DNA of 64,000 nucleotides from Hydrogenobacter thermophilus TK-6 (GTDB lineage: Bacteria; Aquificota; Aquificia; Aquificales; Aquificaceae): assembly GCF_000010785.1 (NCBI RefSeq), contig NC_013799.1, positions 682,001-746,000 on the forward strand, read 5' to 3'. The notes below the pieces were generated by a model that made no database searches, was not told the DNA's origin, and worked only from the letters and a program-made list of their open reading frames with translations. The position numbers and the translations under genes were made by a program. The stretch's first letter is position 1; the number at the start of each line of letters is the position of its first letter. This document shows positions 50,105 through 52,709 of the stretch, one piece after another.

Positions 50105-51361
50105 TTATTTTAAAGTAGCGCTCTTGGGACTAAAATTCTCTGAGTAAAGAGCGCACAGCTCCTCCTTACTAAGCTCCAGCTTTTCAAGTCCCCTTCTGGC
50201 ATACTCCCTTACGCTGGAGGTAGTAATTCCCATACGCTCAGAGACAACCTCGTAAGAGCATCCTTCCAAAAGCATGCTCAGCACTTCCAGCTCCCTACCG
50301 CTGAGCTTTTTCTTGTTGTCCGGTATGCTCTCCTCAAGCTCTCTCAGAAAATCCTTAGGAGTTTTACGCACTTCAGGCTTTTGAGGGTCTGACTCTTTTA
50401 CCTTCTCCCCAGCTTTGCCCCCCTGCGAAAAGTAGTAAAGCACAGAGAGAAACAGCGCAAGGTAACTAAACACTATGAAAAAGTCTCCGTAATACCTGGC
50501 AAGGCTTACAAAGTAGCCCGTGAGTATTCCGGCGCAGACGGCAAAAAAACCCAGCGGATAAGCCCTAAGAGGGTTTCTTAGAGAGTAGAGGCTCAGTAGG
50601 AGGAAAAAGTCCGCAAAGCCAAAGCCCAGCTGAAGGGAAAACATGCCGGCGTTTAAAAAGACATCGCCACCCATATGAAAAAGTGGGAGGGAAATCACCA
50701 GAAAAACTGACGCTAAGCTTATAAGAGCTTGCTGCGTGTATCTTTTGAGAAGCGCGTAAGATAGAAGCACGCCAAGAACGTAAAAGAGCACCTCAACACC
50801 AGAAAGGTACGCAACATTTCCATAGAACTCCATAAAACCCTTGTACATAACACCACCCACCAAGTAGAAGAAAAAGAAGAAAGGCAGAAGTCTGTAAAAC
50901 TCCCTCTCCACCTTTTGCGCATTCACCTTTCCCTCCAGAGGCAAAAGCAAGACCAAAAGCCCCAGAGAGACCACAAGGTACTTTACACCACCCTCAAAAG
51001 GTGCCAAGGAAAGAGCAAAAGAGAGAAGATTACCCACCGCAAGCCCCAAAAAAGCCCAGACAGCTCCCAGCTGTAGCCTGTAGCCCACCAAGACAGCAGT
51101 GGCGGAGGAGAAAAAGCCTATGGCTGACATGACCAGCTCCTTACTGTCCACATAGGGATAGACCGCAGTCAGCAGAGCCGCAACCGCAGTGAATACATTG
51201 GCAAGAGAAAGTAGCCTCTCCCCCACAAAGAACCACAGCACAAAGCCTGCAATATGAGGCAGTAGAAAGTAGGGAAGGAAGTTAGCGCTTCCCAACAAAA
51301 AGCCAGCCATAGGAAAGGACACAAGCCACAGCACAAACCCACTCAGAGCCACCAGACCCAC
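50105..51361 (-). CDS. polytopic membrane protein with C-terminal LuxR-type HTH
   Basis: Roughly 10-12 hydrophobic spans occupy the first ~330 residues. A charged linker (GKAGEKVKESDPQKPEVRKTPKD) follows, then a LuxR-type helix-turn-helix at the C-terminus (LSGRELEVLSMLLEGCSYEVVSERMGITTSSVREYARRGLEKL). It looks like a one-component regulator that senses in the membrane and binds DNA from there, the layout known for Eggerthella-type membrane LuxR proteins. I start it at GTG 51361, with AAGGAG 7 bases upstream. The frame continues to an ATG at 51511, but this would overlap the divergent ATG and make the DNA repeats coding. Target and signal unknown; the adjacent secreted-protein gene is the obvious candidate. 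Confidence 0.8.
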   Translation of the reverse strand: MGLVALSGFVLWLVSFPMAGFLLGSANFLPYFLLPHIAGFVLWFFVGERLLSLANVFTAVAALLTAVYPYVDSKELVMSAIGFFSSATAVLVGYRLQLGAVWAFLGLAVGNLLSFALSLAPFEGGVKYLVVSLGLLVLLLPLEGKVNAQKVEREFYRLLPFFFFFYLVGGVMYKGFMEFYGNVAYLSGVEVLFYVLGVLLSYALLKRYTQQALISLASVFLVISLPLFHMGGDVFLNAGMFSLQLGFGFADFFLLLSLYSLRNPLRAYPLGFFAVCAGILTGYFVSLARYYGDFFIVFSYLALFLSVLYYFSQGGKAGEKVKESDPQKPEVRKTPKDFLRELEESIPDNKKKLSGRELEVLSMLLEGCSYEVVSERMGITTSSVREYARRGLEKLELSKEELCALYSENFSPKSATLK

Positions 51362-51398
51362 AGCCCAACTCCTTGTAAAAATAGCATACCACACCTCC

Positions 51399-51458
51399 GC
51401 GACAAGGGGTGTGACAGAGGGTGCGACAGAAGGTGTGACAAAGGGTGCGACTTGACAC
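51399..51458. repeat. 12-bp tandem repeat array, 4 good copies plus a degenerate fifth
   Basis: On the plus strand, consecutive 12-mers at 51399, 51411, 51423 and 51435 follow GYGACARRGGGT (copy 3 has A in place of the first G of GGG), with C and T alternating at position 2, so the true period may be 24 bp. The fifth unit (51447-51458) keeps GCGAC, then runs into a perfect TTGACA. The array lies between two divergent genes and touches the -35 box of the plus-strand gene. It may be a multi-site operator. Confidence 0.85.
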
Positions 51459-51503
51459 GACAAAAAAAGAGGCTCTAAGATATCCAAAATCTCTTTTGGG
51501 AGG
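51452..51503 (+). promoter_or_regulatory. promoter and ribosome site of the secreted surface protein gene
   Basis: Perfect -35 TTGACA (51452-51457), 18-bp spacer, TAAGAT (51476-51481), then a ~22-base leader with GGGAGG (51498-51503) 6 bases before ATG 51510. The tandem repeats end in the -35, as expected for an activator or repressor site. Confidence 0.65.
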
Positions 51504-51509
51504 TGTATC

Positions 51510-52709
51510 ATGAAGCTGAAAGGAGCGCTTTTGGCAGGCTTGGCACTGCTGCCCTTTGCCGTGTCCTACGGCGCTTACTACGACCTTGGAACATCAGCCC
51601 CGCCAGCCTCGGTAGGTGGGTGCAACTTCGTATTTTTCAACACAGCCCCTCAGGCTGCAATTCCAGACCATACTCTTGTAAGTACCATACCCGGCGCACC
51701 CGCAGGTTACACACTCACCACATCTTATAATGTGGATAAGCGTACCGTTCCTACATCTTGGGGTACTTGGTCGCATAGCTACACCGGTCCCGTATTCTTT
51801 ACGGGATTAGGGCAAACCACCCTCACGCTTACCATAAGCCCGGCGGTTGAGAGCTTTATGCTGTATGTAGAGCCTGAGGAATTTGGCACATATAACTGCA
51901 CTGTGACAACTGACGCGGGGGACAACTCTGGACCAGTACCCATAACTGGGTATGCAGGAGCAAGGGGTTTTGCCTTTGTACATCCGTCGCCTGTGATAAA
52001 CACCATAACCATAACCTGCGACGCTGGAGCTGATGGCTTTGCTATAGGCGAGTTTGCTGCAACTTGTAGCGCTGGCGGAGGAGCACCACCACCAAACGTT
52101 TCCAACATCACATCAGAGTTTGGAAGCAGGGATATGGTAGACTTCAAAAACGTGCCTTTACTTACCAGAAAAGGACCTGCCATAGTAAGGATAGAAAGCC
52201 AGAATGTTATCTTCATAAGCGGCATCAGGATAAACGAGTTTAGCAGACCAGCACTTCAAGGAGCGTCATTGAAGTCTAACGCTATGACAGGAGCTTTGCA
52301 GCCATCTCAGGAGCAGAACTTCATACTTGACCTGAACGCAGGAGAAAGACCTTGCGGAGCTCAGCAGTTTAACCTGTCAGGCTACTGCACAGTGGGAATA
52401 ATCTTTGAGCCAAAGAGCGAAGGCAAGAAGGAAGCCTTCCTTGAGGTGTATTACAACACACCCAACCCAGTGAAAATATACATAACAGGCACGGGAGTAT
52501 CTCAGCAAAGCCAGCCACAACCACAGCCATCTCCACAGCCACCCGGCGCAGGTAGCGGTGGCTCATCAGGGGGTAGCGGCTCATCTGCAGGCACAGGCGG
52601 TGGAGGCGGAGGTGGATGCTCTATGAGCTCTGGCGCAAGTCCACTTAACGCTCTTGCTTGGCTCATGCTGCCTGGTGCGGCTCTCTTTAGAAGACTGAGA
52701 AGGTCATAA
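51510..52709 (+). CDS. secreted protein with C-terminal GlyGly/Cys-CTERM-like sorting tail, 399 aa
   Basis: Signal peptide MKLKGALLAGLALLPFAVSYGA. Domain 1 (about 25-190) is a beta sandwich with WSHSYTGPVFFTGLG and 'ADGFAIGEFAATC', similar in style to PEP-CTERM-type surface domains. Domain 2 (about 200-330) resembles the choice-of-anchor D/ASH type (CTVGIIFEPKSEGKKEAFLEVYY). A Gln/Pro linker and Gly/Ser run follow. Then comes a tail of six Gly, Cys, a hydrophobic span (ALAWLMLPGAALF) and RRLRR, i.e. a tripartite sorting signal for a rhombosortase-like or related protease. It contains several Cys. It is divergent from the membrane LuxR protein and followed by a terminator, so it is a single-gene unit. 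Confidence 0.8.
   Translation: MKLKGALLAGLALLPFAVSYGAYYDLGTSAPPASVGGCNFVFFNTAPQAAIPDHTLVSTIPGAPAGYTLTTSYNVDKRTVPTSWGTWSHSYTGPVFFTGLGQTTLTLTISPAVESFMLYVEPEEFGTYNCTVTTDAGDNSGPVPITGYAGARGFAFVHPSPVINTITITCDAGADGFAIGEFAATCSAGGGAPPPNVSNITSEFGSRDMVDFKNVPLLTRKGPAIVRIESQNVIFISGIRINEFSRPALQGASLKSNAMTGALQPSQEQNFILDLNAGERPCGAQQFNLSGYCTVGIIFEPKSEGKKEAFLEVYYNTPNPVKIYITGTGVSQQSQPQPQPSPQPPGAGSGGSSGGSGSSAGTGGGGGGGCSMSSGASPLNALAWLMLPGAALFRRLRRS

Follow-up and report, generated by a model that had tools for sequence, protein, structure and literature searches.

A putative C-terminal sorting signal in Aquificota, its candidate CPBP protease and a link to type II secretion

We ask whether the unusual end of a secreted protein of Hydrogenobacter thermophilus TK-6 is a sorting signal and, if so, which enzyme may cut it. 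The gene lies in a stretch of 64,000 nucleotides, here called the window. From the form of the tail alone, an earlier note on this DNA had suggested a possible new sorting system in Aquificales.

The tail and the proteins that carry it

The gene and the parts of its product are as follows.

51498..51503, plus strand: GGGAGG ribosome-binding site of the tail protein gene, from the sequence
51510..52709, plus strand: gene for a secreted 399-aa tail protein (P0001), an open reading frame with a body outside any Pfam family
51510..51575, plus strand: N-terminal Sec signal peptide MKLKGALLAGLALLPFAVSYGA, called by reading the sequence rather than by a predictor
52596..52616, plus strand: run of seven Gly, from the sequence; the Gly-rich run is conserved in alignment A1
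52617..52619, plus strand: Cys370, putative cleavage or lipidation site, invariant in all readable tails
52620..52643, plus strand: spacer SMSSGASP; the pattern CS[MLV]....SP.N is common to unrelated proteins in alignment A1
52644..52688, plus strand: hydrophobic segment LNALAWLMLPGAALF with a conserved Pro inside (alignment A1)
52689..52706, plus strand: basic end RRLRRS (sequence and alignment A1)

The C-terminus read from the open reading frame at 51510-52709 is GGGGGGGCSMSSGASPLNALAWLMLPGAALFRRLRRS, in which Gly7-Cys370 is followed by eight spacer residues, a mostly hydrophobic stretch of 15 and RRLRRS. The segment LNALAWLMLPGAALF is weakly hydrophobic and includes Asn and Pro. The signal peptide agrees with the earlier claim that the protein is secreted. 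The plan of a Gly run and Cys, a hydrophobic stretch and an Arg-rich end also stands, with two amendments: the run is of seven Gly, not six, and SMSSGASP sits between Cys370 and the hydrophobic segment. No Pfam family was matched by the body in a Pfam search, and the structure predicted from the single sequence has a pLDDT of 41. Divergent from the tail gene, at 50105-51511 on the minus strand, is a gene for a membrane protein with a LuxR-type helix-turn-helix at its end; its start codon (as listed) overlaps the tail gene's own start codon within a single CATG at 51509-51512.

A profile search of the H. thermophilus genome (G000) identified at least four proteins that end in the tail: the window protein, its paralogue, a choice-of-anchor-D protein and a subtilase. 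The last two were matched at E = 1.2e-9 and 1.6e-7 by profile A1, which is built from tails of this and other genomes and contains neither of them; thus, a chance origin of the tail is excluded. For the motif scan proposed in the earlier note, a lack of other carriers in the genome would have counted against the idea; three more carriers were returned. The paralogue (G000:C1:1262759-1263694, L030) is 69% identical to the window protein over the C-terminal domain and tail and unrelated in its N-terminal half, as if an end module had been shuffled; further copies, several near contig ends, occur in G016 and G048. The differing N-terminal half of its 778-aa frame holds CSLREA, choice-of-anchor Q and InlB-type repeat domains.

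When the window protein was searched against 101 Aquificales genomes, long matches to the body were confined to the same genus. Other genera and a second family yielded tail-only matches to unrelated proteins, along with weaker body matches that fall on Ig-like repeats. Across hot-spring Aquificales, profile searches identified some 50 distinct tails at protein C-termini, and the consensus from 14 tails is SGGGGGGCSM-xx-(A/T)SPxNxLxWLLxPxxxLLRRLxR. Carriers outside H. thermophilus include subtilases, SBBP beta-propellers and InlB-repeat proteins, and choice-of-anchor proteins are also among the carriers in the order. The NCBI "choice-of-anchor" domains are named for their fusion to varied surface-anchoring tails.

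A search with a profile in which the Cys column was masked returned 54 distinct tails, although a few of the weakest (e.g., L105) may be chance matches. Cys follows the Gly run in 52 of the 52 that are readable, a count in which a slight bias remains because the loci were collected with unmasked profiles. The other two are unreadable at this position (N hides one, and an apparent frameshift the other). Almost all of the Cys-masked matches terminate no more than 8 residues from the stop codon.

Several further observations concern individual carriers. Two tail proteins (L113:1955-4195 and L126:716-3385) begin with lipobox-like signals, LAYSC and LSGC, and therefore an N-terminal lipid may accompany the C-terminal tag. 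The choice-of-anchor-D tail gene of H. thermophilus (L240:164-6019; G000:C1:427-433 kb) is convergent with, and 30 bp from, a gene for a GspE/PilB-type ATPase that stands in line with a separate 702-aa secretin gene, so that another secretion-type cluster lies beside a tail protein. In family f5, of another order of the same class, tails of five genomes (G115, G117, G122, G133 and G135) match the profile at E 1e-6 to 8e-6.

A candidate protease in the type II secretion operon

The H. thermophilus genome encodes exactly one CPBP/Rce1-like protease, 913 kb from the window.

G000:C1:1658899-1659363 (L061:5900-6394), minus strand: CPBP protease gene, about 165 aa, last gene of the type II secretion system (T2SS) operon

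The statement in the earlier note that the window holds no candidate protease is correct, with the sole CPBP and the sole rhomboid of the genome both mapping elsewhere. The protein passes the Pfam model PF02517 (43 bits; gathering threshold 22.4). Its top NCBIfam matches are the Mrt (myxosortase) models, all under their curated cut-offs: Mrt_core (NF040914) gives 55.5 bits and 5e-15 (cut-off 100), and MrtX and MrtC give 33 and 36 bits (cut-offs 180 and 195). Mrt_core is the best or second-best NCBIfam match for these proteases generally, at 40-63 bits and under the 100-bit cut-off, and for the Persephonella-type protease the highest match is MrtS, at 74 bits and also under the cut-off. All 22 relatives compared have EExxxR, a central His and HxxxN without exception, and these correspond to the MrtX catalytic residues E146, E147, H188, H223 and N227 (PMC11980579). 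A structural model based on 18 relatives is all-helical (pLDDT 89); Foldseek with this model gave no PDB match, and no relative came up when PDB sequences were searched with the protease profile. In a tree, the Aquificales CPBP proteins group together (39 rows, 89/85); on the same side of the midpoint root are an Anaeromyxobacter Mrt relative and proteins of Nitrospirota and Dadabacteria. There is a Desulfurobacteriaceae CPBP relative as well (L176). The CPBP protease is the likely cutting enzyme for the tail.

The distribution of the protease was compared with that of the tail in 71 high-quality genomes, tails being scored with profile A3 at E<=1e-3. Tails are present in 41 of 53 protease-positive and 2 of 18 protease-negative genomes (Fisher p=9e-7, with shared ancestry ignored and with A3 including some tails found beside the protease). 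Twelve protease-positive genomes have no tail at this threshold, perhaps because their tails have diverged. A clean absence of tail and protease together is seen in family f2, genus g5 and the genomes G007, G022 and G030. The genomes G022 and G030 belong to genera in which the pair is otherwise present and have lost it; GspK and GspL are missing from them too. Genus g5 retains GspK without tails or protease; thus, the protease follows the tail and not the T2SS as such. Profile searches of G036 and G078 found tails and no protease, GspK or convincing GspL, and in G045 tails were present and the protease was not found. The earlier note had proposed to look for a protease of matching presence across genomes; a single CPBP protease of the myxosortase family co-occurs with the tail, so that the note's refuting case, no candidate protease in tail-bearing genomes, does not hold. 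In the complete genomes G001 and G004 the protease is an N-terminally shortened open reading frame of 125-126 aa (L149:3053-3427 and L150:3013-3390), GspK and credible tails are lacking, and the system is perhaps decaying.

In H. thermophilus the operon consists of five genes on one strand, gspE-gspL-gspM-gspK-protease. The T2SSE ATPase and T2SSK were matched at 4.5e-135 and 1.2e-9, and the operon also encodes a GspL-like actin-fold protein and a GspM-like protein, both named from position, an actin-type fold match and conservation of the cluster. The ATG of the protease lies about 40 nt inside gspK and is preceded by its own GAGG site. GspK and the protease are adjacent in 16 of the 17 Aquificaceae genomes that have both (genera g1, g2 and g4; the exception is G013), with relatives at L151-L153 in Hydrogenobacter and Thermocrinis.

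Elsewhere the protease is placed beside tail genes. Away from the T2SS, it is divergent beside a tail gene in Persephonella (g12) and convergent beside one in g16. A tail gene adjoins the protease or is one gene off in g8, where the protease is away from the T2SS, and in g4, where it is inside the operon. In g2 the operon is flanked by a tail gene on its gspE side, and no tail gene adjoins the protease in H. thermophilus. Since the protease gene overlaps gspK, tail cutting may be coupled to loading of substrates into the secretion machine. That the protease serves the T2SS inner-membrane platform specifically and may even belong to it, so that sorting and secretion would be a single coupled step rather than separate ones, is a tentative idea, possible but less likely than not. 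No paper in the literature searched joins gspK, CAAX and sorting; Aquificota may be mentioned in Haft 2024 (PMC10810001), a key paper on the Cys-type signals.

Alternative readings and a proposed route

The earlier note had left the choice between a rhombosortase and a CPBP-type protease. The Gly-rich tripartite plan would suit processing by the single rhomboid protease, as rhombosortase processes GlyGly-CTERM, and the rhomboid is found in nearly every tail-bearing genome. However, 85 of the 101 genomes have it, almost without exception in single copy, among them the tail-less G007, G022, G030 and most members of f2; the tail-bearing G079 and G095 do not. The NCBIfam GlyGly-CTERM model matches only one of 30 tails, weakly, and we know of no invariant Cys in GlyGly-CTERM signals. 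Processing by the rhomboid is very improbable, and we reject it as the partner on its distribution, which is near-universal and independent of tails. Since it is single-copy in nearly every genome, tail-less ones too, the CPBP branch of the earlier guess is the one supported, and the protease concerned is of the myxosortase family and co-occurs with the tail.

Could the tail simply be an unannotated MYXO-CTERM (or JDVT- or Synerg-CTERM) signal, cut by an ordinary MrtX or MrtS? Trimmed from the protein, the window tail reaches 20.4 bits with TIGR03901 (cut-off 20), other tails match the JDVT and Synerg models weakly, and the protease has matches to every Mrt model, Mrt_core included. Yet the whole window protein (15.4 bits) and its paralogue (16.1) are under the cut-off of 20, and the protease, far shorter than MrtX, MrtP and MrtZ, reaches at most 55 bits against Mrt cut-offs of 75-325. 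The tails also have a consensus of their own, CS[ML]..(A/T)SPxNxLxWLxxPxxxLxRR, and in the literature examined we found no description of T2SS-operon placement for known Mrt systems. This reading is unlikely. Somewhat less credible again is an uncleaved membrane anchor, a C-terminal transmembrane segment with a positive stop, alongside a protease with another T2SS role such as turnover of pseudopilins or components. A protease in a T2SS operon could act on T2SS parts, but a plain anchor has no need for an invariant Cys after the Gly run, the protease adjoins tail genes in genera where the T2SS does not neighbour it, and both the co-occurrence of protease and tail and the retention of GspK in g5 without either argue against it.

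The tail is common to unrelated secreted proteins, its Cys is invariant, one matching protease with an intact set of active-site residues is present per genome, the two co-occur and they are linked through the operon and neighbouring genes. Thus, we infer that the tail is probably a C-terminal sorting signal, a tag for cutting and anchoring, of a myxosortase-type system in Aquificota that is linked to type II secretion. The route can be modelled on the MYXO-CTERM pathway (PMC11980579). Sec would export the tail protein from the cytoplasm, and the hydrophobic segment and Arg stop would retain it in the inner membrane. The CPBP protease, as an intramembrane glutamic protease of the myxosortase family, would cut at or directly past the invariant Cys, which is probably lipidated by Lgt or an Lgt-like enzyme. 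The T2SS would then carry the anchored protein to the cell surface, where the lipid would hold it. Genes for GspC/GspD and Lgt were identified in H. thermophilus.

This reading would add a deep-branching phylum of thermophiles to those with Cys-type C-terminal sorting, and it names candidate substrates and a candidate protease for H. thermophilus. With a single CPBP, a single rhomboid and about four substrates, this genome offers a minimal setting for finding the lipidating enzyme. The operon also ties a sorting protease directly to the T2SS at the genomic level, a link sought without success for rhombosortase (PMC3237569).

Comparison with known sorting systems

In GlyGly-CTERM/rhombosortase systems (PMC3237569, PMC6219818) the tail is likewise Gly-rich and tripartite, with a membrane protease as partner and substrates exported by the T2SS; one H. 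thermophilus substrate has a VesB-like Ig domain. Rhombosortase is a rhomboid serine protease, whereas the candidate here is a CPBP protein, and the near-universal rhomboid does not track the signal. The 2011 paper linked rhombosortase to no T2SS subclass (PMC3237569), in contrast to a protease encoded inside the T2SS operon. Synerg-CTERM/MrtS (TIGR04564/NF040589) and JDVT-CTERM/MrtJ (NF033191/NF033192) share Cys-bearing signals and small CPBP proteases, but they belong to other taxa and all scores here are under their cut-offs. MrtJ moreover forms a two-gene pair with its substrate (PMC11980579), while Aquificota genomes have several substrates.

A further close likeness is to MYXO-CTERM/MrtX of Myxococcota (TIGR03901, NF040593; PMC11980579), with its invariant Cys, hydrophobic helix and Arg end, a CPBP protease with EExxxR/H/HxxxN, many-to-one pairing and a T2SS link. 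Divergent neighbouring substrates occur for the Anaeromyxobacter Mrt and likewise in Persephonella. The tail has the tripartite form and invariant Cys of TIGR03901. The host, however, is of Aquificota rather than Myxococcota, the consensus is CSM..SP.N.L.WL..P, and the protease has about 165 aa, compared with 239 aa for MrtX, is encoded within the T2SS operon in Aquificaceae and falls below the MrtX and MrtC cut-offs (33 and 36 bits). Because neither the whole-protein nor the protease cut-offs are reached, we do not class the system as MYXO-CTERM. The tail and matching CPBP protease in Aquificales support the earlier interpretation of a tripartite sorting signal with a dedicated membrane protease, and the Cys may carry the lipid or thioester modification that the note suggested. 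The system would work like the known myxosortase kind. Phylum, consensus, a small protease clade and T2SS-operon placement are, on sequence grounds, new variant features within the Cys-type CTERM/Mrt group, and the system may be a branch of MYXO-, JDVT- or Synerg-CTERM.
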